From contig NC_035170.2 of NCBI RefSeq assembly GCF_001659605.2, positions 26,392,020 to 26,456,019 of the forward strand: 64,000 nt of DNA. The letters run 5' to 3'. This DNA is from Manihot esculenta (Eukaryota; Streptophyta; Magnoliopsida; Malpighiales; Euphorbiaceae). The notes under the pieces were generated by a model. It did no database searches, was not told the origin of the DNA, and saw only the letters and a list, made by a program, of their open reading frames with translations. The position numbers and the translations under genes are program-made. Below are positions 15,862 to 60,804 of the stretch, piece by piece (position 1 is the stretch's first letter; each line of letters opens with the position of its first letter).

Positions 15862-18800
15862 TTAGGCATGAGATGACCTCCTTAAAAATGGATGGTCCAA
15901 GAGCTCAGCAGCAGTGGGACGATCATCTGGATTGACTTGCAGGCATTTCAGTATAAAGTCCTGTGATAAACCAGACAGAAAATCAGGAACTGGAGGTGGC
16001 TCACCGATTCCAATCCTGTACAAAACCTGTGCAGGTTCCAGATGAGAATATGGACGTCTCCTGATTAACATTTCCAATACAGTGCATCCGAGACTCCATA
16101 TGTCTGCTGGAAGCCCATACCCTCCTCTTCTTTTTGGGTTGACGACCTCCGGGGCCATCCAACATGGAGTTCCCTTGCAGGATTTTATAAGGTTATTAAA
16201 TTCGGTCACTTTTGCCAATCCAAAATCTGCAAGTCTCACAGTTCCACCAACATTCACCAATATATTTGCGCATTTGATGTCCCTGTGAATAACATTGTGC
16301 TCGTGAAGGTACTTCAAGCCATGTAGTATCTGTCTAGTGTAAGCAGCCACTTGGGAATCCTTGAGATGATACCTGCTGTAAATTTCTGCAAGAGAGCCAC
16401 TACTTACAAGCTCTAGAAAAATATAAAGCTTTGCTTCGTCCTTGTCTGTGCCGTAATATTGAACTATGTTTGGATGGTTGAACTGGCTTAATAAAGCAAT
16501 CTCCTGCTCTATTTGGTAAATACACTGCTTTGTTTGAATTTCTTGATTTCCTTGATCAAGCAATTGAACTTCCTTCACAGCAAAAAAGAAACCCCCAGCT
16601 GCATATCCTTCATACACGGATCCAAATGACCCGCGTCCCAAAAGCCTACCTTTTTCCCAATTTGCAATAACATGTCTCCTTCTGTCACTCTGCCAAATAT
16701 TCATGGTGATTGTCCAAATGTTAGAAGAAATGAAAAATGAAGAGATAATTTCAATGAGAGTTGATATGCGCAATGCTGCAAGCAGATAGCATAAGCAAAT
16801 TGGAAGAAAATCACTTACATAATACTTGAAGCTTGCTGCATTTGCCTTCAAATCATAAAGAGAAACACTGCTTCCACTTCCTTGCATCATCCAATCAAGA
16901 TCTTCAAGATCTAAACAATGGAAAAAGAACTTCTGGAGATGTATGTCACCAAGGACATCAGTAAGGCCTTGAGTAAAATAAGAAACCTGTTTAGAGATAG
17001 ACGTAACAAAGCGGTGTTCAATGATAAGATCAACAAATATTTTCCAATTTTTTCTATTCACAACTATGCTCTTTCCATCAGGGCAAAGGTCTGCGCTCCT
17101 CTTGTACTCTGCACCTCCAATAAACCTTAGTTCTAAAGCATCAGAAACAATAGGCTTGGATACCATCTCCATTATCTGCTTGCAGTTACTATAAAAGGAT
17201 GGATCTGCATCCCGTATATCTTCTAATGAAATAGTCTTTCCAGCCAATTGTAAGAAAAATGTACGATCAAAGACAACACCTACTCGCACTTTATGAATCA
17301 AAGCTAATGCTATCAGTTGACCAGCCAACTGGAAATACTGAAGGTGCAAGGTCTTCGGCTTAATTGCTGCATATGTTAGAAATGTATGAGCACTAAATCC
17401 TTTTTGAAGGAATAAAAGATGTGCAATTCTAATTATATTAATTGAAACAAAAACACAATTGGAATAAGGAGATGTCAGAGGAGAGTATCACATACATAAT
17501 CCAGACTTTCAATTTAGGAAGCATTTGTTTCTATCAGAGCACTATTTCAATATATGAATGACTTCATTTTCTTCCTATTCATCATTAATTTTTTTAATTT
17601 GTCAGTAAACATCTCCTGGTATGCCACTGCATAATTATCTCTCACAATTTGATAAGAAAATGAAATACTTAATAGCTTTTGTTTACATTTCATTCAATTC
17701 AATACAGTGGTGCTCGACCAATGTTATAAATATAAATCTTAAAGTGTCAGCAAATTCTAAAATAATATGGGAACCGATGCTTTATTAATGCAAGATAGAT
17801 TATCATTTCTATCGGAAAAATTCATGAATACAAAACAATAAGATCCTGTTGAAGGAAACATGCATTATATTCAGTAGAAAGCTTACCAGGATTAGGATAA
17901 AGCCGTGTAGGATCATTTGGACATGCCACAAAAAGAGCATTTTCTGGATTGAATATGGCCTGGAATATTGAGGGAAACCACTTCTCCTTCAAATAACATG
18001 TCCTGTAGTTATTGAGTCCTGCTCCACTCCCTTCTTGTACCCTGAGTTGTAAAAACAAATCGTTAGGCAGCAGCTGATGGCCTTCAACATGGATGAATGA
18101 TGCTTCCATGTTGATGTACTTGTCAATTACTATCTGAAGCGATCTTTGGAGATCTTCATTTGCCTTGGGAATCATCTGCCTGGCCAAATGCCTTCTAAAT
18201 TCATAGCCATGCTCATTCTTATGCTCTAGTAGCCACCTAATATCATCTGTTGGCTTCAAATATTTAACAAGCAGCACACATAGTGCAAACTCTCTCTGCC
18301 GTAAAGACATCCACAATTCTCTTTCAGCGACCTCGTAAAATTCACTGATTCTATGCAGTTCCTCCAAAATGGCAAGATGCTGAAACCATCCATTCCAGAC
18401 AGTAACATCTACCCATGTTGTGTTCAAAGGAAAACAACACTGCATCTTAAGAAGACACTCATCCATCTTTCTCAACAATTTACAAAATGTAGCATAAAGA
18501 AACTCAAAGGCTTCCTCGTAATCCCTCTTGATAATGGGATCAGAACTAGGATCTCTCTTAATAACAGCAAACAAAGGGCGCAAAAAAGCCTTGAAGTCAC
18601 AAACATCACCAAAAAAGGGCCCTGAATTCCAGGGAGATTCTGTACTGGAAACCAAATCTTCACACAACCTATTCCCCAGCTCACCAACAAAAGAAAAAAT
18701 CTCCTTCATCAAACAGTTGGCTCCCTTGGCATCCTCTCCATACAACCAACTAGCAATGTCCATGTTTTTGAGTAACAACCCAAGAGCACTCCGGCAAGAA

Positions 18801-19417
18801 AGATACAGAGAATCCTCATGAGACACCCTCCTGAGCAATTCACAAAACTCTAACACCAAACGTGCACATTCGTTTCGCCAATCTTTCGATAATACTATTC
18901 TACTCAACTTCAGAATATGCATAATCATTCCAGCAGCAATGGCTTTGTCCACTTGATACGGTGACAAGTAAAGGGAGACCAACAATTCTGGAACAAAGGA
19001 CAGCCGAATTACCTCTAGATAACATTTGTTCTCATATGGGCACATTGAGAAGAACTCATTTATGCAATTCTCCATCTGGGTATACGCTGAAGGCACGTAT
19101 CTCCCGTAAAAGCAGATCACCGAAATCATCTTATCAACAATTTGCCAAGGCCGTAGGTGGCTTGGGCTCACCAAGTGAATGCGTCCAGTGTTTTGAATTG
19201 AACCATGCACGTGCATTTTCTCGCACTCTAGCTGCTTCCCAATTCGAATTAACCTTAATCTGACAAGTGGAATTCTGATAATGGCTTGGATTTTCTGATC
19301 AATAGAATCCATAGTTTCGTTCCATTTCTTTTGAATTTCTTGGGTTTCACCACGAGATATCAAATTACTGATAAACATGCACTCTACTGTTTGGCGTGAA
19401 TGGAATTTCCTGTCCAT
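15862..19417 (-). CDS. UBL - HECT N-lobe - MEKK1-type kinase chimera (gene 1)
   Basis: Model: complement(join(15862..16689, 16819..17366, 17887..19417)), 968 aa, GT-AG introns of phase 1 and 0. Residues ~12-80 are a diverged ubiquitin-like domain (ending IGKQLECEKMHVHGSIQN), as in the E3 ligase UPL5. A UPL5-like helical middle follows. From ~478 to 692 is a HECT N-lobe (NPENALFVACPND, YFQLAGQLIALALIH, FDRTFFLQLAGKTISLEDI, LDLEDLDWMMQGSGSS). The C-lobe with the catalytic Cys is absent. Exon 3 instead encodes a whole MEKK1-type MAP3K domain on one exon: P-loop GRGSFGSVYEG (711-721), Lys732, HRD 828-830, DFG 848-850, activation segment CKGTPCWMAPE. All kinase residues expected for activity are present. 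By inference it phosphorylates MKK1/2-type MAP2Ks, with the front end serving as a docking or E2-binding module. The upstream in-frame TTG at 19438 is not a start; ATG 19417 is used. Confidence 0.85.
16690..16818 (-). other. In-frame, stop-free intron at the HECT-kinase junction
   Basis: The intron between exons 2 and 3 of gene 1 (donor GTAAGTG, acceptor TTTGGCAG) is 129 bases, a multiple of three, and has no stop codon. Retention would insert 43 mostly hydrophobic residues (including PICLCYLLAALRI and IIEIISSFFI-like sequence) between the HECT lobe and the kinase. I treat splicing as the default, because the sister genes place an intron at the same point. Confidence 0.6.
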
Positions 19418-19628: not shown

Positions 19629-19663
<35 letters not shown>

Positions 19664-19929: not shown

Positions 19930-22900
19930 GTTCCGGAAGGTAATGTTCAATAGAGATTTATTGATTATTATGGGTTTTCGAAATCGCAACGACGACGTCA
20001 GTCTTGTAACCTTATTCAAACTTTATTTCGTAAAAACTCTTTTCCGTAATTTTATTCGGAAGATTTTAATGATTTATGCTCGAGAGATGAGAAAGAAGGA
20101 GGAGTATCTTTGCCAAATTATATTATGCAGGAGTTTAGACAAGCACTTGAAGACAATAATCTTGTTCAAATACTCACTGTTTGCTCTTTCTTCACATGGG
20201 AGAAGGGCAGGGAGTTGAAAAATCTGGTTAGAGAGAAGCTTGATAGAGCCCTTGCTACTGAGGATTAGGCTCGTAAATTCACTAATGTTGTCTGCTCGAT
20301 TGTTCATGTTCCTAAATCGGATCACAAACCGTTGGTGATTAATACAACTCCTAAGGATAATAGGGGAGATAGAAGGAGATTTCGATTTGATAATGCATGG
20401 TTATGTGATGAGGGTCTGGCTGAGGTTGTTAAAGGAGCTTGGGTTAATTCTATACCAAGCAACCTTTTGATGAAACATGGTGATTTAGTTTTTGCTCTTT
20501 CGTTGTGGGGTAGGAGTAGAAATAGAGAGTTTTGGGAAAATAAGAAGACTATACAGAGATTATTGGATAATGGGCCCAGTACTGTTTCTCACGCCTCTTT
20601 AAAGGAAGACTGAAATCGTTTTCTTAAGCAGGAAGAAGCTAGACTTAAATAGCAGGCAAAGAGCTTTTGGCTTAAAAATGGGGATCGAAATATAAAATTT
20701 TTTCATGCACAAATTAATGGTAGACGAAGAATGAACCGTATTACTAAATTAAAGGAGTTGTCAGGTACCTGGATTGAGGATGAGCAGGAAATTAAAAATC
20801 ATGTTCTGTATTATTTTCAGTCTATTTTTTATGGCGGTTCTGTGGATTGTGAACGGATTTTTGAATTGGTGCCGCCCTTGATTAGTGATGCCAATAATGC
20901 TGATCTTTGTGCTCCCTTTTCGAATGAGGAATTTAGAGCTGCTCTTTTTCAGATGCATCCAAACAAGGCACCTGGGCCGGATGGGTTAAATCCTGCATTT
21001 TATTAGAGATTTTGGCACTTGATTGGTAATGATATTTTTGATGGTTGTCGCCTATGGCTTCAATAAGGTACTTTTCCTTATTCTCTTACTGAAACATTGA
21101 TTGTTTTGATCCCTAAAGTAGATAGTCTTGAAACAGTTAAAAACTTTCGTCCAATTGCGTTATGTTAATGTTATATAATATTGTGGCTAAAGTTTTGGCC
21201 AACAGATTTAAAAGGTCCTATGATTATCTCTGAGAATCAGTTTTCCTTTATCCCTCATCGGTTGATTACCGATAATGTTATAGTTGCGTTTGGAATGATT
21301 CATAATATGAAAATTAATAAGGGTAGAAATGATGGTAATTGTGCACTTAAAATTGATATTTCTAAGGCTTATGATATGGTAGAGTGGGAGTTTCTAAAAG
21401 GCATGCTGGAACGATTTGGTTTTTCTACACAATGGATTAGGTGGTTGACTATGTGTTTTTCAGATGTTTCTTACAATATCAATTTTAATGGTGATTGGAT
21501 TGGTCATATTGTGCTTAGTAGAGGTCTTCGACAGAGAGATCCTATCTCTGTATCTCTATTTGGTGTGTGCAAAAGGCTTATCGTTACTACTTAAAGATGT
21601 TGAATATAGGGGCTGGTTGCAAGGCTATAGGGCAGGTGTTAGATGCCCAAAGATCTCACATTTATTCTTTGCAGATGATTCTCTGCTATTTTTTAATGCT
21701 AAATTGGAGGAAGCAGATAATATTAAATCTATTCTCAATAGCTATGCGGCTGCTTCTGGAGAAGTGGTGAACTTTAATAAATCAGGCATTTCCTTCAGTC
21801 CCAATGTGGTCTCCTCTATAAGGTCTAATATCAGTAATATTCTAGATATTCATTCACCATTGAATCATAGTGCCTACCTTGGGTTACCTTCTCTTATTGG
21901 GAGGAATAAAAAAGCAATTTTTGGTTTTCTGAAAGAAAGAATGTGGAAGATGATTAATTCATGGAGCAGCATATTCCTGAGCTAGCTGTTTGGAAAAGTG
22001 TAATGGCATCAAGGGAGTTGATTCGAAGGGGTACAAGGTGGAGGGTGAGTAATAGAGAGAAGATTTTAGCGGCTTCAGATCCCTAGATTCCTAAGGAGGA
22101 TACATTTTTTGCAGATGATGGCCTCGATTTTATTGAACCACATTTGCATGTTTGTGATATTTTTGAAGGTAATGGGAGGGATTGGAATATTGCTATTTTA
22201 TTGGAGCTTTTTTCTCCTAGAGATATCAAGGGCATTATTAGTATTCCTATTAGTATTTATCAATAAGGAAAATTCCTTCTTGTGGCACTTTAATAAATGA
22301 GGTGTGTATACGGTGAAGTTCGCATACTTTGTTTGTATGAACTTGCTAGGAAGATCATCTTTTAATGTGAGGGGTGAGTTGTGGACTAGTTTATTGAATG
22401 TTTTGGTTACTCGAAAAGTGAATGATTTCTATTTGAGAGCTTGTAGGAATATATTGCCTACAAAGGATAACTTAAGGCACAAGGGTGTGGATGTGGATGC
22501 TAGATGTCCTTGGTGCCATGAAGATGAAAGTGTCAAATTTATTTTGTTGCATTGTCATGTGTCTAAAGAAGTTTGGAGGTTAGGAGGAGTGGGAGATTTG
22601 CAGCCTAATGATAATTTTTTTAATTTTTTACTACATATTTTGAAGTTTTAAGATAAGTTTCGAAAAACCTTTATAATAGTCTGTGCATAGAGATTATAAT
22701 CAGTAAGGAACTCATTATTATGGAATCAGGTGCAAAATTCAGCTGCTCACCTTGTGGAAGACGTCATGCCTCATATTTTGGATTGTATAGAAATATCAGT
22801 GCTACTTTATATCATAGCAGGAACTTGTTTTATTCCTTCAACTCTGCTCATGATCCTGAAGCCATTCCTCTCCAAATTTGTGTGTCATCTTCAAGCTTGG

Positions 22901-23149
22901 ATAATTTCAGTTGACTTTCAAGTTAATGGGGTTTTGTTTCAAATTCAAGATTTTATTGGCTACGGTTTTATTATGGAAAACTCTGAGGGTATATTTCAAC
23001 GTGGTATTTTTGGTTTTTCGGAAGGAAATGGTACGCCGGTAATTGTTGAAACTTTAACTCTCGGTCACTGTTTGCTCTTTGCGACGGAATTTTTACCTTT
23101 TAATAGTTGTATTCTTATAGATTATTTGCAAGTGATTCAATCTCTTTAG
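19930..23149 (+). mobile_element. Decayed L1-type LINE retrotransposon
   Basis: Non-LTR retrotransposon read in several broken frames. About 20065-20275 gives the end of the AP endonuclease (DFNDLCSRDEKEGG, then FTWEKGREL). Reverse-transcriptase motifs follow: NKAPGPDGLNPAFY (20965-21006), the finger/palm block with KIDISKAYDMVEW (21349-21385), GLRQRDPIS (21524-21550) and the catalytic FADD box at 21668-21679. A zinc-knuckle zf-RVT domain (RCPWCHEDE...LLHCH) is near 22500-22560. A weak RNase H-like stretch (VNGVLFQIQDFIGYGFI) lies at 22920-22980. Stops and frameshifts (for example 20266, 20611, 21004) show it is dead. The 5' end with ORF1 is missing. Confidence 0.85.
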
Positions 23150-28830: not shown

Positions 28831-28889
28831 TCTTTAAATTGATTTATTTCTAATTTAATTTTTCATGTAGCTTGTTTATTTACTGCAAT

Positions 28890-35872: not shown

Positions 35873-35880
35873 GTTGTGGC

Positions 35881-36320: not shown

Positions 36321-36328
36321 GTTGTGGC

Positions 36329-37535: not shown

Positions 37536-37595
37536 GTTGAGCTGGGGTTGGCAGCTTTACAGCACCAGTTTCTCTCACAACTAGATATATCATTA

Positions 37596-42991: not shown

Positions 42992-45900
42992 TTACTTACC
43001 AGAAGTTTCTTGAGAGACTTCGTTTGTGAAGTAAGATGAGAGATCTACTTGCAGGTAATCATACTTGTTCATGAATGCATGTGTCTGGCATTGCAAGTGA
43101 AAGCATTAAGAAAAAAATCAAATATAGAAATTGGTGATCAGAAGAAATTATGGGATTTCTGTTCGACGTTGAGGAGAAAAAAAATTAAGAATTTCACATA
43201 CATACCAAAAGTTCAGATGTTGACCGTCTCTTTTTTGGATCCTTCTGCAAACTGAAAAAGACATTAGCATCCCATGGGAGGATTAGTGACCTCATAATTC
43301 ATATTTTTTGTAAGACAAAAGAAAATTACCAATCCAATCTTTGTTATTGTAGTTTTGAGTAGACGAGTGTACAAGAAATATTATTTCATCAAAAGAAAAC
43401 AAAGACAGAAATGAGATGCAAAAAACCTTATTATATCAAATATTCCAAATATAGATAAAATATTTTCCATTAGATTGCTTGACACTGATAAGAATTAATC
43501 AACATGAACATATTTCTAAATTATACTGTGCACTCAATTCATGTACTCTTACTCATAAGAACTGGATTATATATTCATAATTTAAGAAAAACTGATTTTT
43601 GTGAGTAAAGGTACATGTCACGTGTTACCCAGATGCACTGTATAATTTTTCAATATCCTAAAGTATGGACTTGTCAATGTCATATTGAAAGCCACGAATC
43701 ACTCTTATAACTAAAGACAGCAAAACTGATATAGAACATGTCTTTCGTTAGCACCACACAATTAAACCTTACCATGAAGATATGAATGAGCAAAACTCGG
43801 AGGAAAATTGATCAGAAGGTGCACAAGGTTCAGGTTGCTCAACAATAGCTTCCATAAGTTCAAAAAGGTTAGCCCAGACTTCACCCTGGTCCGGAGAGGA
43901 ATATGGGAATTGACCAGTTGCACACTCCAGCATTACTATTCCCATGCTCCAAATGTCACTTTTGTAGTCGTGCGATCCTTCACTAATTTCACTGCTAATT
44001 CTCTCAGGCTACAAAGCACAATTGCACATGATCAAGTTTTAAATACAAGCAGAATAATGGGTAACCTATGAACTTTGCAGCCAGGGAAAGAGGAAAAATT
44101 CTTGCAAGGAAGAAAAAGAAATTAGACATTGCCACAGGTACAATTAAGGAAAATAATACAATTAAATACCCACAGACATGTAGTGGTATGTGCCAACATA
44201 AGTATTTGCCTGTCCAGAGGTGCTTGCCATTATTGCACTCACACCAAAGTCAGCAATCTTAACTTCTCCTTTATGATTTATCAATATATTTGAAGGTTTC
44301 AAGTCCCTATGAATAATATGTTTTTCATGATGAAGATACGATAAACCCTGGAGCACCTGCAGCAATATTTTTCATTTTAAATATTAAGAAAAATGATAGG
44401 GCACAATAAATCTTTATCTACTATAAATAACTGAAGTTCATGGGTCTTATGAGTTTTCAAATTTTTCACCTGCTTACAGATGGCAGCAAGATATGGTTCT
44501 GCAATTCTTGTATTTCTTTTCAGAAACTCTGCCAAAGATCCACCATCCATATACTCTAATACAGTTGAAATGTCACCATTGTTATAGAATGAATCGTAAA
44601 ACTTGACCACATATGGACATTGTGAGGTTAGATTAATTCTTAATTCCCTGGCAATTGCTTTCCTTGCCTTTTCCTCAATCCTCAGCTGTATGACCTAAAT
44701 CAAACAAGAATCACAAAATTCATGATAGAAAGCATCAGTATAACTCGTTGGAAGATTGAGTAAATGGAAAGCTGGATTTTAGCTTTCACCATGACATTGC
44801 AGAAGCTTAATATTTAACATAACAAAAGAGATAAGCCAGAGAGGAAAGAAACTCAAATTATTATTCCTGAAAACAGAGGACATACAAACAGAAACAGAGT
44901 TTTTTCTTTCCTCCTCATTTTTCTAAGGAGTGAAGCCAATAAAAATACGTGCTCGTTATGTATGGAGATAGTTGAAAGTTTTCTTTTTGGTTCAAGTATT
45001 ACCCATCTCATGCACAATCAATGGCTGGAAGTGTTCATAATTTCTATTGAGATTTAATCGATTGATTGCATTATATTATATTACGGTATACCAAACGTAT
45101 CACAAGAAAAGAAAAATAAGTCCAGAACAGATCATACCTTTAATGCGAAAAACTGTTCAGTCCACTTATGTCGCACCAGTTGCACAATTCCACTACTTCC
45201 CTTCCCAATGACCTTAATGGCTTCTAAATCAGCTAAAGACAATTGGTGGTCTGATGGCTTTATAGGGGCTGCCTGAATACAGGAGATACAATCTTACATT
45301 TTTTTAATATTAATTCTTGCTTTCTAGTAACACTGTTTTGGGAGGAAGTTTTAGAGGTAAAGTAAGGTTTTTCAAAATAGTGTTCATATATAGAAGGAGG
45401 ATTTTTCAAGAAAGGTAAGTTCGAAACCCACCAAAAATCTCACTTATTTAGTCATCAATTTGGAGAGTTGGAGAAGTTTTGATACTTTTTTTTTTTTTGG
45501 AAAAAATTACCTAGATGGGTCTACAAGGACCTGGATTCTATGTGAATCCCACTTTCATTTTATGGTCCACCAGACAAAAAATTCCCTTTTTCACTTCATC
45601 CAAACACACTGTGAATTGGCCTATTTTTGCAATTAAGAGAACTCTTTCAAGAGTTGGTATATAAACAATGAAAGAAATACATTAAGATTATAGAATAAGA
45701 TATTTCAAATTAAATTAAACAGTTTGTTATGATGCACAATGTAAAGTTACTAATTAAACTAGTTCAACATATTCAAGAAATGTTGAACCTCTCTCCCCAG
45801 ACAAAAAACGAATTCATGGTCACAAATCATATCTTTCTTTACTTACAACGGTATGTCAACAAATCAGTGGCGAAGTCCTCATAAGAGAAAAAAAAAGATA

Positions 45901-46200
45901 TAAATTATCTGACAGTCTTACAGCTTTAGTTTCGGTTTGCGAGACAATTCGAATTCCGTCACGATTCACGCGCAGATCACCATCGACAAACGTACCGCTT
46001 TCGGTTCTGCCCCCGATCCGGCACCAGAAATCAGTAAAACTGCAATAAAAATTGATATATTTTTACAAAGAGCGAATGAGAAGAGAGTTGCAGGCTTACA
46101 GGAAGTCGGCGATGGAAACTCCATGAGGAGAGGAAGGGAGAGAGAGCTGGAGGTCGGCTTTACGGCCGTTTAAGGCAGCACCTTTGCCGTTCGTCTTCAT
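42992..46200 (-). CDS. MAP kinase kinase, MKK2-like (gene A)
   Basis: Group-A MAP2K; relatives are activated by MEKK1 and phosphorylate MPK4-type MAPKs. Eight exons: complement(join(42992..43084, 43206..43251, 43773..44008, 44174..44356, 44470..44694, 45138..45272, 45922..46006, 46100..46200)), 367 aa. The N-terminus holds a MAPK docking-like motif [10 protein letters not shown], then [20 protein letters not shown], diagnostic of MKK1/2. Kinase: GKGSSG (85-90), Lys107, HRD 198-200, DFG 218-220, activation loop with the plant signature T228-x5-T234, GTYHYMSPERI, and a C-terminal [15 protein letters not shown]. All catalytic residues are present and every exon joins in frame. An alternative upstream acceptor at 46040 would add 11 in-frame residues. 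It is head-to-head with chimera gene 2. Confidence 0.9.
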
Positions 46201-47249: not shown

Positions 47250-50200
47250 ATGGCGTGGCCGTTCGCTGGAGCTGAACCCATCCAATTATTCGTCAAAATG
47301 ATGAATTCGCAAGCTCCACCCATGGAAATCAACGTGGATGCTAATGATATTATAAAGATTATCCACGAGAAAATTCTAGTGACCTGGAAAATTCCAGTTA
47401 CTGAACAGAAGTTCTTTTATGGGACAAAGCAGCTACAATACTGGGACACGGTTAAACAGTGCTCAATTCAAAACAAAGCCTGCCTTGAGTTGATGGTTCG
47501 ATGGGATGACATGGACGGCACGTCGGCACTTCTCCAAATGGTTCATCAAATGAGTTCAAGCATTTGTCGCATGTGCCAAGGTGAATCCGATTCCAAAAAT
47601 GAAGACTGCCGTAATATTATTACGGCGGCGTTGGAGCGCCTAAGAGAAGAGAAATTGGACAGTCTTTCTTTGTATTCTGTCCCTGCGACTTTGGTTATGC
47701 TTTATAGCTCGCCGATTGAAGGTAACAAATTCTATGGTCATAATTTGATAATGCTTTACATGGAACTTATATTGATGAACGATGATGAGGATTTTCCAGA
47801 TGAAAAAGCTTCTTTGGGATTAGAATTTTGTAATTTGCTCAGAGAATTATCTGCTGAAGATCCTCTGTACAAATCTTGCAGGACTATTCTAGCAGAGCTT
47901 TTAGGAGATTATGAGATTCATTCCGATTATGATGAATGCATGATAACCGAAATTCTACTATTCGCTTTCAAGTTATCACAAGACTTGTCGAATGGATTGG
48001 CCAAGTCCTTCTATCGATGGGAACACATTGAATTACTGAGAATTCAATTTGGTGAGTTTGGAAAATTCTTATGCGTATTACGTAAGGCTATTGATGTTCA
48101 GATAAAAGTCGATGAGAATGATGATCAGAATTCGATGGTTGAATTAATAGTTGCCGGAATTGGAATTATTTTTCAAGTTCACTTGAAAGATATGGAGCAG
48201 AATCTTGCTTGTTTTGCCAATATGATACAAGTATTTGAAAAAATTGATACGCTGCGTTCTGTTTCACTTCTGTATTTGGCCATTCTGAATGAATTGAATA
48301 GCATGTCTCAACTTCTGGAGGGTGCTCCGGATGAATTTCAGCGTTTATTAGAATGCCAGAAGAATTCACTACAAATAATGATTAAGAACATCATGCGGGG
48401 TGATGATTATGATTGGCTTCTTGAGTACATTGCTATGCTTGATTCTGAATCCAGGATGCATTTAGTAATGATGAAGATGATCCCGGAGAAAAGATTACGC
48501 GACGCAGAGCTCTACAAGCCTCTCATCTGGTGGTCCGAAAATTTGGACAAAAAGCTGTTCAATGCAGTAAAAAATACGGATCTTAGAGATCCTAAAGTAT
48601 TGCATCTTTGGTTATGCAAGTTATGTCAAATTTTATTCGAACCAAAAAATCTCCTGTTCCGGGCATGCACAAATGATCCTACAAAGTTCTATCCTAATCC
48701 TGGTAAAATCGCACCTTTTGATGCCTTTCTTTGAGTTTTCCTGCTTGTACTTTTATTTCCTTGAGAAATGATTGATCCATATCTTTTTTCAGCAGCTTTG
48801 TCATATATTACTTTCTGAGATATCATTAGGGCATAGAATATTGAACTGGCAGAAGATTTTTCATGTTACTATTAAATATTGTTATCTGAACTAGATAAAT
48901 ATATATGTTTGAGAAAAAAAGATTGTGTATGCAGAGTTGGAGCCAGAACCCTTTCATCTTGATTGTTTGAGTTTTGCTGGTAAAGTGATTGCAGTAGCAC
49001 TGATGCATGAAATACAAGTAGGTATTGCCTTAGATCTTTTGTTTCTTATGCAACTGGCTGGAAAGAATATTTCGTTAGAAGATGCAAGGAATGTAGATTC
49101 ATGCCTTCACAATGCGGGCAAGGATATCTCTAAACAGGTATCCTTTTTCACAAAAGGCTTTGAGAGTATTTTTGGGACACCAATTTTACAACTGCTATCT
49201 TTTAAGGGACTAGAGCTTGAAGATCTTAACCAGGTGCTAAAAGGAAAAATAAATCTTACATCTAATTCTAGTAAGAAGAAAAAATATGTGAATCATGACT
49301 TCGATGAAAGTGATCCTCTGATGTCCCAATTACAAGAGGTATGTGCTTGTAAATTTTTCTTACTCTTAACGGAGCTATTGTTTCCTTCACTTTTTCATGC
49401 TTATCACGGCTCAGAAGCTTCATTTCAAAATATTATTGCATGAGCCGCTTTATCATTGGAACCTTCTTTGGAAATAAATGGCTTGTATTTTTTCATTTTT
49501 CTGAAGAAATTGTAGGTTGCTGAATATCTAGCTCTTTCATCAATTTCTTATTGTTACTAGAGTAAATAATTTTGAAAGTGATCCTCTGATGTCCCAACTG
49601 CAAAAGGTATGTGCTTGTAGAGTTTACTGTGTGTTACTCTAGCATATAAAACTTTTGTTTCCTTTACTTTTCATGTATATCACAGCTCTGAAGCTTGCTT
49701 TGGAAATATTATCGCATGAGCTGCTTCCTTACTGGAATTCTTTTTGGGAATTAAAGGCTTCCTTGTAAACTTTTGAACTTCTATTCAAGAACTTCCAACA
49801 ATTGTATAATACTGGAGCAAGTTCAGCTAATGTTTTAGATGAAATATTCTAAGTTTTGGGAACTATTTCATTAATATAACCATGCTTAACACTCAATTAA
49901 TTCCTTTTAAAGTATAATACATAAACTATGTTGAATAATTTGCAGATTAGAAGACAGAGAATTAATATTACAGATTGGCAATGGGGTGATTTCCTGGGCA
50001 GTGGGTCATTTGGACGAGTGTATGAAGGTTAATAGGTTATGCTGCTGATGGTTTCTTTTTCGCAGTAAAGGTAGCTCCGTTATTAGAAGGGAAAAAAGTT
50101 GACCAAATTGAGCAAGAGATTGCTTTGCTATGTCAGTTCAGTCATCCAAATATAGTGAAATACTTTGGCACACATAAGGATGAAATCTCTATATTTTTCT

Positions 50201-50747
50201 TGAGCTTGTAAGAGCAGGTTCCCTCGAAAAACTTTATCAGAAGTTTCAACTTCGAGATTCTCAAGTGTCTTTGTACACCATGCAAATACTGAAAGGTTTA
50301 AAGTACCTTCATGATCGAAATGTAGTCCACAGAGACATTAAATGTGCAAACATTTTAGTTGATGAGAAAGGATGTGTGAAAATTGCAGATTTTGGATTGT
50401 CAAAGGTGACCAACTTAAAAACTCTCATGAAGTCTTGCTGGTGGAATCCTCGTTGGATGCCTCCTGAGGTTGTTAATGGGAAGGGAGGAGGGTATGGATT
50501 TAAAGCTGATATTTGGAGCATTGGCTGCACAGTGTTAGAAATGTCCACCCGCCAAATTCCTTACTCTCATTTGGAACCTGGAGCTGTAGATTACAGCATT
50601 GGAGAGGGTAACCTACCTCCTCTTCCTGATTCTCTCTCGAAGCATTCACGAGATTTCATCCTGCAATGCTTGCAAGTTAATCCAGATGATCGTCCGACAG
50701 CTGCTAAGCTTTTAGGGCATCCATTTGTAAAGGGGCGCTGCTCTTAG
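47250..50747 (+). pseudogene. UBL - HECT N-lobe - MEKK chimera (gene 2), kinase broken
   Basis: Exons 47250-48702, 48935-49338 and 49946-50747, with the same phases as genes 1 and 3. Exon 1 is intact: MAWPFAGAEPIQLFVKMM begins a ubiquitin-like domain (~10-82), then a UPL5-like body ending FEPKNLLFRACTNDPTKF. Exon 2 holds the HECT N-lobe (FDCLSFAGKVIAVALMH-like, LMQLAGKNISLEDA), but about 45 residues are deleted between CLHN and ISKQV relative to gene 3. Exon 3 opens the kinase with GSGSFGRVYEG, then an 8-base insertion (TAATAGGT type) makes a stop at 50030-50032. A 4-base deletion near 50187 shifts the frame again. The rest stays open (VVHRDIKCAN, ADFGLSKV, WWNPRWMPPE). A 647-aa UBL-HECT protein without kinase could still be made. 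Confidence 0.8.
49569..49610 (+). repeat. Duplicated exon-2 end inside the gene 2 intron
   Basis: GAAAGTGATCCTCTGATGTC plus CCAACTGCAAAAGGTATGTG repeats the last ~35 bases of exon 2 and its donor, closer to gene 3's sequence than to gene 2's own exon end. It looks like a conversion or short duplication footprint. Confidence 0.65.
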
Positions 50748-52167: not shown

Positions 52168-54328
52168 TTACTTACTAGAAGTTTCTGGAGAGCCTGCGTT
52201 TGTGAAGTAAGATTTGAGGGCTTCTGCTTGCAGGTCGCCATACCTGATCATGAATGGATGTTCCTGCCATTGCAATTGAAAATATTAAAAGGAAAATAAA
52301 ATGTTAGAAATGTCTGCTGATCAGCACAAAATTGATGGTATTTCATTTGGATGTCAAGGAGGAGAAAAATAAAAGTTTCAGTTACCAGAAGGTCACGTGC
52401 TGACCATCTTTTTGTTGGGTCTTTCTGCAGACTGGAAAAAGACAAAAGAAGCCCAGAGTATTATTTCATAAAACCAATTCAATGACATTATATGAAATAT
52501 TCCAAATAAAGATTAAATATTTCTATTAAATTGCTTGATACTCACAAGAGTCGATCAACATAACAAGTAAATAAAGACATGCAAGGTTATTCAGGACTCA
52601 TCAATATCATACTGAAACCCTGAAATCACTTTTTTAACAACGGACAGCAAAATTGAGATGGAACATTCCTTCTGTAAGCACCACATGTTTAATCTTTACC
52701 ATGAAGATATGAATGAGCAAAACTCTGGGGAAAATTGATCAGAGGGTGCACAAGGTTCTGGTTGCTTAACAATAGCTGCCACAAGTTGATAAACGCTAGC
52801 CCAGTCTTCACTCCGGTCTGGCGGAGAATATGGGAATTGACCAGTTGCACACTGCAGCATTACTATACCCAGGCTCCAAATGTCACTTCTGTAGTTGTGC
52901 TCTCCTCCACTAACTTCACTGCTAATCCTTTCAGGCTACAAAAAATAAGCAGAATTATGGGCAACCTCTGAAATTTGCTGCCAGAGGAAAGAGGAAAAAT
53001 TCTTGCATATTGCCACAAGCATAATTAAGAAAAATAATGCAATTAAATACTCACAGACATATAGTGGTATGTACCAACGTAAGTATTTGCATGTCCAGAA
53101 GTGCTTGCCATTATTGCACTTACACCAAAGTCAGCAATCTTGACTTCTCCTTCATGATTTATCAGTATGTTACAAGGTTTCAGGTCCCTATGAATGATAT
53201 GTTTTTCATGATGAAGATACAATAAACCCTGGAGTACCTGCAGCAATAAAAATAAAATAAAAGTAAAAGCTATTAACAAAAATAATTGGGCAACAAATAA
53301 ATCTTTATCTACAATAATTAAATAGCTGAAGCTCGTAGTCTTGTGGGTTTTCCAGATATTTCACCTGTTTACAGATGGCAGCAAGATATGCTTCTGCAAT
53401 TTTTTTAACTTTGTTGAGAAGATCAGCCAAAGATCCACCATCCATATACTCCAAGACAATCGAAATTTTGCCATTGTCGTAGAAAGACTCGTAAAACATG
53501 ACCACGTTTGGACATTGTGAGGTTAAATTGATTCTTAATTCCCTAGCAATTAATTTCCTTGCGCTCTCCTCAATCTTCAGCTCCATAACCTAAATCAAAC
53601 AAGAACCACAAAATCACATTCTTTTTCTGTACAATTAGCTTTGATTGAAATGCAAAATATAGAGATGAGTCTGAACGGATCATACCTTTAATGCAAACAA
53701 CTGCTGAGTCCACTTGTGTTGAACCAGCTGCACAATTCCACCGTTGCCCTTTCCAAGGACCTTAATGGTTTCTAAGTCAGCCAAAGCCAACTGTTGATCT
53801 GATGGCCTAATAAGGGGCGCCTGATACAGGGCACACACTTTCCCTTTGTTTAGCAGTATTAATTTTAAAAAAAAATATCTAAATAAATTCTAAAAATTAA
53901 TAAATGAATTCTTTCCACACAAACAAAAAATTTGATAGAAAAAATATAAATTGAATTAAATTTTTGCAAAATCTTTAATTTCAAATGAGGAATTTAAGTA
54001 TTGTATTTCAGTCTAATAAAAAGGAATATAAAATCTTATATTTATTAGAAATTAATAAAATCTTACAGCTTCGGTTTCGCTTTGGGAGACAATTCGAATT
54101 CCATCGCGATTCACTCTCAGATCCCCATCGAGAAATGTACCGCTAGGGGTTCTGCCACCGATCCGAGACCAGAAATCAGTAAAATTAAAACTACATTGCA
54201 CAAAGAGAGAAAGAATGAGAAAAAGGGTTTGCAGCTTACAGGAACTCAGCGAAGGAAACTCCTTGAGGAGGAGGAGGAGGGAGAGAGAGCTTAAGCTTGA
54301 GTTTAGAGTCCTTTCCCTCAGTTTTCAT
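52168..54328 (-). CDS. MAP kinase kinase, MKK2-like (gene B)
   Basis: Paralogue of gene A with the same eight exons: complement(join(52168..52263, 52386..52431, 52700..52935, 53055..53237, 53365..53589, 53686..53820, 54067..54151, 54240..54328)), 364 aa. N-terminal docking-like [13 protein letters not shown], then [20 protein letters not shown]. Kinase: GKGNGG P-loop, Lys103, HRD 194-196 in HRDLKPCN (Cys replaces the usual Ser), DFG 214-216, T224-x5-T230, YMSPERI. The C-terminus is [14 protein letters not shown], closer to the usual MKK2 ending than gene A. All junctions are GT-AG and in frame. It should encode an active MAP2K in the cytosol or nucleus. It is head-to-head with chimera gene 3 and tail-to-tail with gene 2. 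Confidence 0.9.
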
Positions 54329-55394
54329 TGTAATTGGTGTAGCCAGAAGATGAAATCAGCAACTTTACTATCCTTAAAGGCTTGAAGAAAAGAGCAGCCA
54401 CAATCGCTGAACCAGTCGAGATGTCAGAAATTATATAATAATGAAGACCTCCCCGTTTACTTGGTCGTCATTTTATTCGCGCCATTTTCCTTTTCGATTT
54501 CCCTTTTTTAATCCTCTTTCGATTTAATAATTTATTTATCAAAAATTAAAAGGAAAAAAATAAAAAAATAAGAAAATTTTTGTAATAAAAATTAAAGAGT
54601 AAATGAATTTTAAAATTATAATAATTTTGTCCATTTAATTGAAAAAGAAAGAGTAGATTATTTTTTAATTTTAATAAGTTTTTCGTTAATTTTAGATATT
54701 AATAATTTATATAATTAAATGAGTTTATGGTGTAATATAATATTTTAAGTGTTAAAAATTATATATTTTAAATATTAATCTTTAGTTTTTGATTGTTTTC
54801 ATATTGTAGCAAAGTTTAATTGCTTTTTGCCCATTAAATTCAAGAGGGTTGTGGCTGTTTTGGGCTTTGAATGATTCACTCATTAGGTGAGAGTCACCCA
54901 ATTGATTCAATCTTCAACCAAAGATCGAGTTATAGCCACATAATTAAAGAGTGCTAATCAAACTTGGTCAAAAGAAGTCCATTGAACAGGCGAGGCATGA
55001 GTTATATCTATGTATATTTTACTTGTGAACTTGCCGACCATTTCTTTCCTAATTTTCGGCTTCTTGCTAAATATTTAATTGGCCATGGAAGGCCCAGTAA
55101 CTTTTTCAGGGAACAGCGTTTTTTTTTATCCTCTTTTGTTTAAGTAGTTTGCAGCCAGCAGGTATTGACCAAACATTGTAATTTGTTCTATTATTCAACA
55201 TTAATTTTCATTTTGTTTCCCTCCATTGCGTTTGAGCTCTGCAACACTTACCTCTCGGCTCACCTGCTATAGAGTCTAAGTGAGGCTGCTTGCTTCTCCA
55301 TTTATCCCTCAAATGCTACCTAACACTAAACCCTGTCGCCAATTCCTCAAGTGAAACAAGACATAGAAGTCAGATGACCTCTCATCCAGAGTCG
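54329..55394. promoter_or_regulatory. Divergent intergenic region of pair 2
   Basis: 1,066 bases between start codons. CCCGTTTA (54452-54459) and GCGCCATT (54479-54486; TTCGCGCC is E2F-like) are shared with pair 1. It is nearly identical to 61903-62951. An in-frame ATG at 55374 precedes the conserved chimera ATG by seven codons. Confidence 0.45.
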
Positions 55395-58300
55395 ATGGCG
55401 TGGCCGTTCGGTGGAGCTGAACCCATCCAATTATTCGTCAAAATGATGAATTCGCAAGCTCCACCCATGGAAATCAACGTGGATGCTAATGATATTATAA
55501 AGATTATCCACGAGAAAATTCTAGTGACCTGGAAAATTCCAGTTACTGAACAGAAGTTATTTTATGGGACAAAGCAGCTACAATACTGGGACACGCTTAA
55601 ACAGTGCTCAATTCAAAACAAAGCCTGCCTTGAGTTGACGGTTCGATGGGATGACATGGACGGCACGTCGGCACTTCTCCATATGGTTCACCAAATGAGT
55701 TCAAGCATTTGTCGCATGTGCCAAGGTGAATCTGATTCCAAATACGAAGACTGCTGTAGTATCATTAGCCAAGCGTTGGATTGCATGACTGAAGAGAATT
55801 CGGAGATTCTCTCTTTGTGTTCTGTCCCTGCGACTTTGGTTATGCTTTATAGCTCACCAATTGAAGGTAACAAATTCGATGGTAATAATTTGATAAGGCT
55901 TTCCATGGATCTCATATTGATGACCGAGAATCAGCTTTCTCATGATGAAATAGCTTCTTTAGGATTAGAATTTTGTAATTTGCTCAGGGAAGTATCTTCT
56001 GAAGATCCTCTGTATAATTCATGCCGGACTATGCTAGCGGAGTATTTAGAAGATAAATATGAGATCTATTACGGTTGTTATCTAAGGACAGTGATCCAAA
56101 TTCTACTCTTTGCTGTCAAGTTATCACAAGACTTGTCCAATGGATTGGCTAATCTCTTCTATCGAAGCGAACACATTGAGCCACTGAGAATTCAAGTTCG
56201 TGATTTGGGGAAATTTTTATGCGTATTGCGTAAAGCAATCAATGTTCTGATAAATGAGGATGAGGATGATGAGCAGAATAGGATGGTCAAATTTATAGTT
56301 GATGTGATTAAAGTTCTTTTTCATCTTCACTTGAAAGATATGGAGCAGAATCTTACTCGCCTTGCGGATATGAAACAAATATTTGAAAAACTTGATACGG
56401 CGCGTCCTGTTTCACTTCTGTATTTGGCCATTCTGAATGAATTGAATAGCATGCCTCAACTTGTGGAGAGTGCTGCGGATGAATTCAAGCGTGTATTAGA
56501 AGGCCAGAAGAATTCACTACAAATAATGATTAAAAACATTATGCGGAGTGATGATTATGATTGGCTCCTTGAGCACATTGATGTGCTTGATTCTGAATCC
56601 AGGATGCATTTAATAATGATGAAGATGTTCCCTGAGAAAAAGTTACACAATGCAGGGCTCCTCAACACTCTCTTTTGCTGGTCTGAAAAGGTGGACAAAA
56701 AGCTGTTCAATGCATTCAAAGGCAAGGATCTTACAGATCCTAAAGTGCTGCATCATTGGTTATGCAAGGTATGCCAAGTTTTATTCGAACCAAAAAATCT
56801 CCTTTTCCGAGTATGCCCAGATTATCCTACAGAGTTCTATCCTAATCCTGGTAAGATCACACACCTGATGCTTTTTTTTTCTTGTTTAGTGAGCCTTTCT
56901 ATGAATTAGCATGCTTTTTTTTCCTTAAGAATTGATTGATCCATATCTTTTTGCTGCAACTTTATCATATACTTACTTTCTGAGATGTCATTTGGGCATA
57001 GAATATTGAACTGGCAGAAGATATTTCATATTATTAAACATTGTTATCTAAACATTGATAGCAAATATGTACTAGATTACTGTTGGATTGCAATTAAACT
57101 TTATCATGTGCTCTCTTTTTTTTCCAAATCTTCGAGTTCATCATTATTTTCCATCACCTGATAAAACAATGATAAGGGTCAGAGAGTTGGAAAATTAGTA
57201 ATTCAACAAAAGTAGTACTAGTTGAGACATTAGGGCACTGGTAGGAAATTTAGGCGAAGGAAAGCGAAGCGATTAAGAATATCAAAAGATGCCACCAAAC
57301 AGCAAATGAAGAGAACACAACATGCACTATTGTAATTCTGTTGGATTTGGAGGGAGAAGAGAAAACTAAGAAAGAGATAAAGAGTTGCGGGAACAAGATC
57401 TGATTTTTTACTTCTTTTGTTTTCATACATGCTTGCAGCAGAATAGCTAAATATACAGAGCAAGAAGTCAAATATTTTCTACCTAACCATCTAAACACCT
57501 TACTTTGTGAACTACTCTTACAAGTTAATCTATCACATCTATTTTGCAGCTGGAGTTCAGGACGTAAAACAAACAAAATACACAAATTAGAATTCTTGAA
57601 ACTTGTAGAAATTTTGGAGTTTGAAGTTAAAGTATCACTTGCTTCAACACTCCTCCTTTGATGCTTTTGGTGAAAACTCCAAATTAAATTATATTGGAGC
57701 ACATCCCACCAATTTTCTGTTTTGATTTGTTGTTGGTGGAGCACTTCTCTCCGACTCTTTCATGGAACACTTCTCTCCAATAATCTTCATTGACTTTAGG
57801 TGCACTTCTCACCTTTTGTTTGCTTTTTCTGGTGCACTTCTCACCATTGCTCTTCTTCTTTTTCTGGTGCACTTGCTCACCATTGTTTTCCTTTTGGTGC
57901 ACTTGCTTACCTTGTTTTCTTCTTTTTTTGGCGCACTTCATCTTTAGCAAAAAAGTTCCTTTTTGAAAATTCATCTTCTTGGAGCAACTTTGTCTCCAAA
58001 CATTCTGGTTGAGGAGCAGCCATGTCTCCAACCGTTCTTGACTGCAATTTTCTTCTTGGAGTGATCCTCCTCTTGTGGGCTATCATAACTTCCTTAGTTG
58101 TGTAGCTATGCATGCTTTAACAATAATAACATGCTCTAAACAGGTTCCTTAAGATCTAGAAGCTCTGATACCATTCGTTGGATTTGGAGGGAGAAAAGAA
58201 AACTAAGAAAGAGATACTTCTTTTGTTTTCATACTTGCTTGCAGCAAAATAGCTAAATATATAGAGCAAAAAGTCAAATATTTTCTACCTAACCATCAAA

Positions 58301-60804
58301 ACACCTTACTTTAAGAACTACTCTTACAAGTTAATCTATCACATCTCTTTTGCAGCTGGAGTTCAGGACATAAAACAAACAAAATACATAAACTAGAATT
58401 ATTGGAACTTGTAAAATTTTGGAGTTTGAAGCGAAAGTATCACTTGCTTCAACACACCTTCTGATGCTTTTTTTGGCCTGTTTAGTGAGCCTTTCTATGA
58501 ATTAGCATGCTTTTTTTTCCTTAAGAATTGATTGATCCATATCTTTTTGCTGCAACTTTATCATATACTTACTTTTTGAGATGTCATCTGGGCATACAAT
58601 ATTGAACTGGCAGAAGATATTTCATATTATTAACATTGTTATCTAAACATTGATAGCATATATGTACTACGGTTACTGTTGGATTGCAATTAAACTTTAT
58701 CATGTGCTCTTTTTTTTGTTTTTTCCAAATCTTCGAGTTCATCATTATTTTCCATCACTTGATAAAACAATGATAAGGTCAGAGAGTTGTAAAAATAGTA
58801 ATTCAACAAAAGTAGTACTAGTTGAGACATTAGGGCACTGATAGGAAATTTAGGCAAAGGAAAGAGAAGCGATTAAGAATATCGGAAGATGCCACCAAAC
58901 AGCAAATGAAGATAACACAACACTATGGTAATTCAATGAAAGAACATGATATGCATTTGTTTAGTTCTATGGGTTGAGTTAGACCACCAGGTTCTCCAAA
59001 AGTTTTGCACAAGTAATAAACATTTCATTTTCGAGTTTGCTTTGGGTATAATTCAACATCACCCTTGGATTTGGATTACATTTTATCATGGTCATTTGCT
59101 CAAATCATAAGTTCATGATTGTATATGCAGAATTGCAGCCAGAACCCTTTCATCTTGACTGTTTCAACTTTGCTGGTAAAGTGATTGCACTAGCATTGAA
59201 GCATGAAATACAAGTAGGTGTTGCCTTAGATCGTGTGTTTCTTATGCAATTGGCTGGAAAGAATATTTCGTTAGAAGATGTAAAGAATGCAGATCCATGC
59301 TTCTACAATAGGTGCAAGGAGTTCATAAATAAGGATGACTTGTCAACTTTGGAATCTCCTAAAGTGAAGTTTGGATTCAAGACTGGCAAGACCATGAAAC
59401 TTTACCCAAGCAAGGGTTATTTTGAATCTCTAGTTCGGCATTGCTTTGTCCGCTCAATCTCAAAACAGGTGTCCATATTCAGTGAAGGCTTTCAAATGAT
59501 TTTTGGAACATCAATAAGCCAGCTACTTGAAGATTTTAAAGGACTAGAGCTTAAAGATCTTAACTGGGTGCTAAAAGGAAATGTAAATGCTGGATCTAAT
59601 TTTGGTAAGAAGGGAAAATCTCTTAATCATGAATGCAATGAAAGTGATCCTCTGATGTCCCAACTGCAAAAGGTATGTGCTTGTAGAGTTTAGTGTTACT
59701 CGAGCATTTAAAACTATTTTTTTCCTTTACTTTCTCATGCATATCACAGCTCTGAATCTTGCTTTGGAAATATCATTGCATGAGCTGCTTCCTTACTGGA
59801 ATTCTTTTTGAAATAAAAGGGTTCCTTCTAAACTTTTGAACTTCTATTCAAGAACTTCCAACAATTGTATAATACTGGAGCAAGTTCAGCCAATGTGTTA
59901 GATGAAATATTCTTAGTTTTGGGAACTATTCATTAATATACCGTGCTTAATTCTCAATTACTTCCTTTTAAAGTATAATACATAAACTATGTTGAATACT
60001 TTGCAGATTAGAAGACCAAGAATTAATATGAAGGATTGTCAATTGGGTGACTTCCTAGGCAGTGGGTCATTTGGAAAAGTGTATGAAGGTTATGTTGCTG
60101 ATTGTCCCCTTTTGGCAGTAAAGGTAGCTCCATTGTTAGAAAGAAAAAAAGTTGACCAAATTGAGCAAGAGATTGCTTTACTACGTCAGTTCAGTCATCC
60201 AAATATAGTGAAATATTTTGGCACAGATAAGGATGAAATGAATCTCTATATTTTTCTTGAGCTTGTAGGAGCAGGTTCCCTTGAAAAACATTATCAGAAG
60301 TTTCAACTTCAAGATTCTGAAGTGTCTTTGTACACCAAGCAAATACTGAAAGGTTTAAAGTACCTTCATGATCGAAATGTAGTCCATGGAGACATTAAAT
60401 GTGCAAACATTTTAGTTGATGTGAAAAAATGCGTGAAAATTGCAGATTTTGGATTGTCAAGGGTGACCAACTTAAAAACTCTCTTCAAGTTTTGCTGGTG
60501 GAATCCTCGTTGGATGCCTCCTGAGGTTGTTAATGGAAAGGGAGGAGGGTATGGATTTAAAATTGATATATGGAGCGTTGGTTGCACAGTGTTGGAAATG
60601 TCCACCCGCAAAATTCCTTATTCTCATTTGGAACCTGGAGCTGTAGATTACAGCATTGGAGAGGGTAAGCTACCTCCTCTTCCTGATTCTCTGACAGAGC
60701 ATTCACGAGATTTCATCCTGCAATGCTTGCAAGTTAATCCAAATGATCGTCCGACTGCTGCTGAGCTTTTAGAGCATCCATTTGTAAAAGGGCGCTGCCC
60801 TTAG
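55395..60804 (+). CDS. UBL - HECT N-lobe - MEKK1-like kinase chimera (gene 3)
   Basis: Model: join(55395..56850, 59131..59672, 60007..60804), 931 aa. Phases 1 and 0 match gene 1. Exon 1: MAWPFGGAEPIQLFVKMM, ubiquitin-like fold to ~82, then the UPL5-like body. HECT N-lobe from about 464: LLFRVCPDYPTEFYPNP, FHLDCFNFAGKVIALALKH, DRVFLMQLAGKNISLEDV, FKGLELKDLNWVLKG, ending ESDPLMSQLQK; the catalytic C-lobe is absent. The kinase is one exon: GSGSFGKVYEG (684-694), Lys705, DFG 813-815. Two departures: the HRD motif reads HGD (793-795, codon GGA at 60388), and the usual GTPxWMAPE reads WWNPRWMPPE (830-839), losing the activation-loop Thr. It may therefore be a weak or differently controlled kinase. 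Intron 1 (2.28 kb) carries a TRIM element. An upstream in-frame ATG at 55374 could add MTSHPES. Confidence 0.85.
56861..57338. repeat. Intron repeat unit, left copy
   Basis: ~470-base intronic segment (CTTGTTTAGTGAGCCTTTCT ... ATTGTAATTC) repeated at 58455-58934 on the other side of the TRIM element. The two copies are nearly identical, so the duplication is recent. Confidence 0.8.
57339..58454 (-). mobile_element. TRIM-type miniature LTR retrotransposon in intron 1 of gene 3
   Basis: Two direct LTRs, 57339-57649 (311 bases, TGTTGG...CAACA) and 58176-58454 (279 bases, one ~30-base deletion), enclose about 525 bases. Read on the minus strand, the right LTR is followed within a few bases by TGGTATCAGAGC (58162-58173), a perfect initiator-tRNA-Met primer-binding site. 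The purine tract AAAGGAGGAG adjoins the other LTR (57651-57660). The internal part has a repeating TGGTGCACTT(G)CTCACC motif and no gag-pol. Size and parts fit a TRIM. There is no 5-base target duplication; instead the flanks are ~470-base repeats. Confidence 0.8.
58455..58934. repeat. Intron repeat unit, right copy
   Basis: Right-hand partner of 56861-57338, starting immediately after the TRIM LTR (CACCTTCTGATGC) and ending GGTAATTC before unique intron sequence. Confidence 0.8.

Follow-up and report, generated by a model that had tools for sequence, protein, structure and literature searches.

A chimeric gene family of Manihot esculenta that joins the front half of a UPL5-type HECT gene to a MEKK1-type kinase

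A stretch of 64,000 nt of the Manihot esculenta (cassava) genome, hereafter the window, carries three genes that run from a ubiquitin-like domain and a UPL5-like body through part of a HECT domain and a phase-0 intron into a MEKK1-type kinase coded by a single exon. The question raised by this locus is how the front of a ubiquitin ligase came to be joined to a mitogen-activated protein kinase kinase kinase (MAP3K), and what the resulting proteins might do. The order is found at no fewer than 18 loci of the genome, and the kinase occupies the position held by the last exon in UPL5 genes. We consider with moderate confidence that these genes form a chimeric, probably retro-born family of MEKK1-type MAP3Ks aimed by the partner-binding half of UPL5, rather than a family of E3 ligases.

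Gene 1 lies on the minus strand. Its exon 1 (17887..19417) is an open frame coding a degenerate ubiquitin-like domain and the body, 39–40% identical to exon 1 of the two UPL5 genes of the same genome, while exon 2 (16819..17366), 56% identical to UPL5 exon 2, codes a HECT N-lobe that keeps its small subdomain (Pfam HECT 98.9 bits, profile positions 35–205 of 306). The next intron (16690..16818; 129 nt, phase 0, GTAAGT..GGCAG) features CTAAC 35 nt upstream of its 3' end, and the frame stays open across it into exon 3 (15862..16689), an intact kinase with HRD, DFG and GTPCWMAPE (Pfam Pkinase 216 bits). Gene 3, on the plus strand, is composed of exon 1 (55374..56850; ubiquitin-like domain, Pfam ubiquitin 39.7 bits, and body), exon 2 (59131..59672; HECT part with reduced small subdomain, Pfam HECT 54.8 bits, last profile position 180 of 306) and exon 3 (60007..60804; open kinase with HGD and NPRWMPPE, Pfam Pkinase 212 bits). 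Both spliced proteins are free of stops over their three exons (968 aa for gene 1, 938 aa for gene 3), and the HECT-kinase junctions proposed for them in an earlier note on this DNA (16819/16689 and 59672/60007) were borne out. Gene 2, also on the plus strand, has an open exon 1 (47250..48702; ubiquitin-like domain and body, Pfam ubiquitin 39.9 bits) and a HECT exon with an internal deletion (48935..49338; Pfam HECT 40.6 bits). Its kinase exon (49946..50747) is frame-shifted: it has two frame breaks, meets its first stop after 28 codons and has to be traced through three frames, and Pfam finds a fragment of the kinase. The common order that the earlier note saw in the three genes therefore stands for body, HECT part, phase-0 intron and single-exon kinase, with the qualification that the kinase exon of gene 2 is broken. 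Domain search recovered HECT in all three genes and Pkinase in genes 1 and 3. The ubiquitin-like domain, claimed for all three genes, was recovered in genes 2 and 3; that of gene 1 scores 13.5 bits, under the Pfam ubiquitin cut-off of 25.4 bits, and is recognisable by alignment only.

Self-comparison of the window identifies genes 2 and 3 as tandem copies. Gene 4 (62952..64000, plus strand) is the start of a fourth copy whose exon 1 is cut at the right window edge; it has 349 open codons and 91.9% nucleotide identity with the gene 3 region, and its whole is read elsewhere as L009 (L-numbers designate the other loci read in this genome, C-numbers its contigs). The strong divergence between genes 1 and 3 (29% identity in the body, 38% in the HECT exon and 60% in the kinase) argues that the fusion architecture is old. 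Note that the 3' end of the gene 2 HECT exon is repeated together with its donor within the following intron (49305-49484 and 49573-49760). Intron 1 of gene 3 (56859-58934) carries two repeats resembling long terminal repeats (LTR), 57335-57668 and 58173-58471, with 84% identity, and beside them the sequence GCTCTGATACCA at 58162-58173; the ensemble resembles a small non-autonomous LTR element and has a 480-bp direct duplication (93%) on its flanks.

A HECT search of the genome (640 Mb, 86 contigs) gave 43 matches, and 16 candidate fusion loci (L009–L024) were taken for reading. Body, HECT part and kinase follow each other on one strand in 15 of them; the exception is L020 (C7:2852309), rejected as a fusion copy, whose kinase shows 37–39% identity and which has no front half. 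Together with genes 1–3 the family has at least 18 loci, of which C10 carries 14 and C7 carries 4. A chance origin of the order is excluded by its presence at 18 loci. A merging of neighbouring genes by gene prediction, which the earlier note had already considered unlikely, is rejected because the order is common to all 18 and the donor to 16 of them. An assembly artefact was also discarded: the bodies of the other copies are 40–88% identical to that of gene 3 and are spread over two contigs. The gene 1 kinase exon was searched against the genome with 140 of 1415 candidates scored, so that counts are lower bounds. Within this set the 18 best single-exon matches are exactly the 18 fusion loci, and the next ones have 41–44% identity. 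In-frame ATGs found in open frames directly upstream of the kinase exon (MNIWQ in gene 1, MLNTLQ in gene 3) could allow front half and kinase to be made as two proteins from separate transcripts. This is improbable given the presence of a front half at each of these 18 best intronless MEKK1-type kinases, the donor position kept in 16/18 copies with phase 0 preserved, and the identical distance of 16 residues between the kinase exon start and the LG of the G-loop in genes 1 and 3.

Most fusion copies still have the look of functional protein genes. Within the matched parts, 15 of the 18 copies are free of stops and frame breaks, the exceptions being gene 2, L014 and L018. The match covers the whole body, or leaves out just the first 17 residues, in ten copies (genes 1 and 3, L009, L010, L015, L017, L019, L022, L023 and L024), and the match of L016 ends 15 residues early. 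In L021 the body meets the edge of the stretch read, and the kinase, about 5 kb downstream, is without a recognisable G-loop motif. The L010 copy is chimeric, its front half grouping with genes 2 and 3 and its kinase with L013 and L017, which suggests recombination between copies of the array. A second, isolated HECT fragment is found in L024 (positions 682-1044, minus strand, C7) and, with a kinase remnant of 22–24 residues at 1256-1327 on the plus strand, represents a further degraded copy.

Since both parents, UPL5 and MEKK1, persist in the same genome, the origin of the chimera can be traced at the level of single bases. Two normal UPL5 genes, on C8 and C9, both have the C-lobe; the HECT loci on C5, C18 and C15 (L025–L027) and L029–L033 were dropped as UPL5 candidates. 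In UPL5 the body is coded by exon 1 and the HECT N-lobe, with the end ...YNGYKETDPQISWFWK, by exon 2; exon 3 codes an 88-codon C-lobe with the catalytic Cys (IV.EMSAEQRK...HTCF...GCSFGTW). Descent of the fusion front half from UPL5 is indicated by homology of body and HECT part to both genes and by the shared exon layout. Exon 2 of UPL5 ends in ETDPQISWFWK followed by GT, and (E)SDPLxxQxxK or a similar end precedes GT in 16/18 fusions (exceptions gene 1 and L018). The gene 3 end, ESDPLMSQLQK, aligns with that of UPL5, and the gene 3 join is at the site of UPL5's own last intron. On the other side of this intron, the gene 2 kinase exon is preceded by TTGAATAATTTGCAG and begins with the codon ATT, both identical to the acceptor and first codon of the C8 UPL5 gene. 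A comparison of the 15 flanking bases at 4239 CAG sites (all CAGs, not acceptors alone), on both strands of the window and of 15 other loci, left only four with at least 13 matches, and they are gene 2, gene 3 and the two UPL5 acceptors; the acceptors of L019, L021 and L023, compared apart, have 13, 13 and 14 matching bases. The acceptor matches together with the shared donor lead to the conclusion that the kinase took the place of the last UPL5 exon, at the acceptor of UPL5 itself, in agreement with the earlier proposal that it sits in the place of the C-lobe. The opposite arrangement, a C-lobe exon spliced instead of the kinase, was looked for with the UPL5 C-lobe of this genome, which has no match in the window at E<=1; in loci L009–L028 (20) it matched only two other HECT genes, L026 and L027. 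A hidden C-lobe exon is rejected on the same grounds and because the 129-nt intron of gene 1 is too short for an exon of 88 codons.

The kinase of gene 1 shows 74% identity over 242 aa to the cassava MEKK1, which upholds its assignment as MEKK1-type, and the range for the fusion kinases is 50–74%; against reference sequences, the gene 1 kinase is 68% identical to AtMEKK1 versus 46–48% to ANP1 and YDA. At least two MEKK1 genes with introns are present in this genome: in one, on C2, the kinase domain is spread over at least 7 exons, and the second, on C10 at a distance of about 44 kb to fusion L019, also has an intron-split kinase. A candidate further MEKK1-like exon is found on C7 among the matches listed. 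The fusion kinases have no intron at all in the kinase, a difference that points to a MEKK1 retrocopy, and the kinase probably arrived as such; what tells against this is that loss of introns rather than retroposition may have made it intronless. On the sequence evidence, a copy of UPL5 retained its first two exons, coding ubiquitin-like domain, body and HECT N-lobe; an intronless MEKK1 kinase stands in phase 0 in place of the last exon, with the old UPL5 acceptor where this is recognisable; and the chimera was amplified to at least 18 loci.

Whether this happened once depends on gene 1. It falls outside the other fusions in the front-half tree (20 rows, UPL5 of this genome and reference UPL5 included, L011 omitted for its short body) and in a first kinase tree that had MEKK1, ANP1 and YDA as references, both with midpoint roots and gene 1 on a long branch. 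In a second kinase tree, to which the cassava MEKK1 was added and from which the broken kinases of gene 2 and L014 were omitted, the 15 other fusion kinases form one clade relative to cassava and reference MEKK1 with support 100/99. Gene 1 likely derives from the same fusion event as the other 17 copies, a single event being simpler because site, phase, intronless kinase and 16-residue spacing are all shared. Three observations count against this: the gene 1 kinase joins the other fusions with support of only 75/62 once the cassava MEKK1 is in the tree, its grouping with that MEKK1 is not rejected (p-AU 0.35), and neither the end of its exon 2 nor its acceptor can be recognised as that of UPL5. 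Gene 1 could then be a second, independent fusion, in which case UPL5 and MEKK1 would have been joined twice.

The next question is what remains of the HECT domain. In the alignment to NEDD4L, residue 164 of gene 1 exon 2 corresponds to chain position 281 of 392. The C-lobe has about 112 residues in E6AP; this length and the alignment place the lobe boundary 18 residues ahead of the exon end. The join is therefore not exactly at the lobe boundary, as had been proposed, lying about 18 residues beyond it in gene 1 and about 30 in gene 3. The small N-lobe subdomain, which is the E2-binding site in known HECTs, is by alignment intact in gene 1 only, reduced in gene 3, L009 and L019, and absent in 14/18 copies. 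The family lacks the hallmarks of HECT E3 enzymes: no copy has a C-lobe with catalytic Cys and the small subdomain is complete in 1/18. We infer that HECT ligase activity is ruled out for the product because the thioester Cys is missing and the small subdomain is reduced or missing in 17/18. The same alignment predicts that the family is mostly not an E2 dock either. A MAP3K that docks a charged E2 through its HECT N-lobe, in line with one of the two roles suggested by the earlier note, is the least probable of the functions considered here: the complete subdomain makes E2 binding possible for gene 1, but with the subdomain absent or reduced in the other copies E2 docking cannot be what they have in common, and an E2-binding front end does not hold as a family property. 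For the HECT exons AlphaFold gave an uninformative model (3-row alignment, pLDDT 41).

In the kinase half, DFG is present in 18/18 copies and HRD in 16/18 (HGD in gene 3, HKD in L021; gene 2 and L014 were read in pieces). The VAIK lysine was not found by motif pattern in L023 and L024. The P+1 stretch is the canonical GTPxWMAPE in gene 1, L011, L012 and L016, and is altered in the other 14 copies (NPRWMPPE, GTTPW, GTIPW, GTRGW, GKIHW, GTIDW); the MEKK signature, GTPx[WYF]MAPEV, is present in these four and not in the others. Selection was assessed in 13 pairs by the ratio of nonsynonymous to synonymous substitution rates (dN/dS), with intervals around the ratios. Both halves are constrained in several older pairs. 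The L022-L023 pair has values of 0.54 (body), 0.27 (HECT) and 0.27 (kinase), every interval being below 1. Kinase values with intervals below 1 were also obtained for g3-L019 (0.33), L009-L019 (0.17), L021-L022 (0.40) and L013-L015 (0.34), where g1 to g4 stand for genes 1–4. The gene 1 kinase has 0.26–0.27 with L017 and L022, the interval of g1-L017 (0.26) being below 1. The kinase intervals of g3-L009 (0.55) and L010-L013 (0.61) reach 1. In the body of g3-g4 past the ubiquitin-like domain the ratio is 1.47, not significant (0.75–3.94), and in the close pairs L013-L017, L014-L015, L015-L016 and L023-L024 it is uninformative, several values being above 1.

Part of these data speaks against a family of functional, targeted kinases. 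Three copies are damaged, namely gene 2 in its frame, L014 by a split of about 4.9 kb in the kinase and L018 by two stops and loss of the donor; the matches of L011–L013 do not include the N-terminal portion of the body; and the body evolves fast, with dN/dS of 0.3–0.9 (1.7 in L014-L015) and intervals often up to 1. The three broken copies, the three with shortened bodies and the body ratios of about 1 or more in some close pairs could belong to a dying tandem family, fused in the past and now mostly neutral. We give this little credence, since about 8 stops would be expected under neutrality in the gene 2 front half since the split of genes 2 and 3 and none is observed, and since purifying selection is found in the older pairs. 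A more serious competitor, though still unlikely, is a decoy or guard-linked family whose altered tandem copies bait or modulate the MEKK1-MKK1/2-MPK4 pathway in immunity, catalysis being secondary. Such a role as bait or modulator has been proposed for the extra MEKK copies near MEKK1 in Arabidopsis. Tandem amplification, the fast evolution of the body, HGD or HKD in 2/18 copies, a canonical P+1 stretch in only 4/18 and the MKK2-type genes that adjoin two copies are all compatible with such a role. It fits poorly with the retention of HRD and DFG and with kinase dN/dS of 0.17–0.40 with intervals below 1 in six of the 13 pairs, among them g3-L019, L009-L019, L022-L023, L021-L022 and L013-L015; the two gene 1 pairs (0.26–0.27) agree with this.

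For the favoured reading, of MEKK1-type kinases aimed by UPL5's partner-binding half, the regulatory N-terminus of MEKK1 would have been replaced by UPL5's recruiting half and the product would act as a MEKK1-type MAP3K. A substrate- or partner-binding role of the front end is possible and is the best reading. According to the available excerpts of two reports, WRKY53 of Arabidopsis is a target of both proteins: UPL5 binds this factor and tags it for degradation, and MEKK1 binds and phosphorylates it (PMC6963213, PMC8998842). A protein carrying both the UPL5 front half and the MEKK1 kinase could thus deliver the kinase to WRKY53-like clients, and the fused kinase would phosphorylate or signal at UPL5 partners of this type. 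This proposal is weakened by the fact that the WRKY53 link comes from Arabidopsis and not from cassava. Gene 1 is the copy with canonical kinase and complete N-lobe; in the tandem copies the body and the P+1 loop, which faces the substrate, diversify. Because UPL5 and MEKK1 share a target in Arabidopsis, as those excerpts have it, the fusion would be a natural test of reusing the recruiting modules of ubiquitin ligases to aim kinases.

Genes 2 and 3 each have a MAP kinase kinase (MAP2K) gene as neighbour on the opposite strand. MAP2K-a (42992..46200, minus strand; 367 aa, Pfam Pkinase 243.6 bits) and MAP2K-b (52168..54328, minus strand; 364 aa, Pfam Pkinase 237.5 bits) are intact 8-exon genes with 7 introns each, all GT-AG, and open frames. 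We take them to be MKK1/2-type by comparison with Arabidopsis sequences. The best PDB relatives of MAP2K-a are MEK1. The MEK-type activation loop motif is T-x5-T, and the activation loops here, TSGQANT and TSGHANT, are those of group A MAP2Ks (MKK1/2/6). MAP2K-a is head-to-head with gene 2 (start codons 1049 nt apart) and MAP2K-b with gene 3 (1045 nt), and either spacer could serve as a bidirectional promoter of a MAP3K-MAP2K pair. An exon 1 relic of such a gene lies upstream of gene 4 (61836..61932, minus strand), at the edge of the duplicated block; adjoining it, an open frame at 61632-61877 resembles by eye the leucine-rich repeats of plant immune receptors and has no Pfam match. The closest exon sets elsewhere in the genome are on C16 and C3. 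A MAP2K search of L009–L028 (E<=1e-6, >55% identity) gave the C16 gene alone among the matches listed, and the neighbour is seen at genes 2 and 3 only. MEKK1-MKK2-MPK4 is a known cascade, as stated in the excerpt available of PMC5668296. A bolder extension of the favoured reading, which is speculative and rather unlikely, is that a signal to degrade has been rewired into a signal to phosphorylate: the client-binding half of UPL5 would bring the MEKK1 kinase to clients such as WRKY53 in competition with UPL5, and two units would co-encode their own MKK2-type substrate head-to-head, a two-tier MAPK cassette spread by tandem duplication with a diversifying P+1 loop.

The chimera resembles several known systems in part. 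It shares with plant HECT subfamily VI (UPL5) the ubiquitin-like domain, the body (33–40% identical to the UPL5 of this genome), the HECT N-lobe and the exon layout, and differs by lack of the C-lobe with its catalytic Cys, by a small N-lobe subdomain that is mostly gone and by the added kinase. Its kinase is that of plant MEKK1-type MAP3Ks, from which it differs in having no MEKK1 regulatory N-terminus, no introns in the kinase and, in 14/18 copies, an altered P+1 loop. In jingwei-type retro-chimeric genes an intronless retrocopy is captured by the upstream exons of a host gene; the retrocopy joined to host exons is similar here, with the difference that the catalytic exon of the host is gone and that the chimera is found at 18 loci or more. 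Mammalian MAP3K1 (MEKK1) also combines a MAP3K and a module of the ubiquitin system, a PHD/RING E3 motif, in one chain (PMC4356348, from an excerpt). The motif there is of another type and functional, in contrast to a HECT remnant without catalytic lobe, and we infer that the two combinations are of independent origin. Plant HECT genes are described, in the part available of PMC3712016, as evolutionarily very conservative and without large amplifications. Set against this, one HECT gene has here lost its catalytic part, become linked to a MAP3K and is now found at 18 or more loci. No report of a UPL5-MEKK1-type fusion was found in the open-access literature by titles and abstract starts, and database annotations may show the domain string. 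The word "kinase" is absent from the main text of Marin 2013, and the main text of a survey of 62 cassava MAPKKK genes has no HECT, ubiquitin, UPL5 or tandem.

The remainder of the window codes three cytochrome P450 genes (4574-6365, 10515-12306 and 37536-39582; those pieces that were tested match Pfam p450), a pair of which lies within a 3.3-kb tandem block of 91% identity, and glutathione S-transferase genes or pieces (254-688, 2859-3209 and 15170-15631). Upstream of gene 1, positions 20269-23149 hold a decayed LINE-like reverse transcriptase (RVT_1 17.2 bits, under the cut-off). Outside the window, beside the UPL5 gene on C9, L042 (3-4861, reverse strand) has open frames that resemble by eye an endogenous pararetrovirus.

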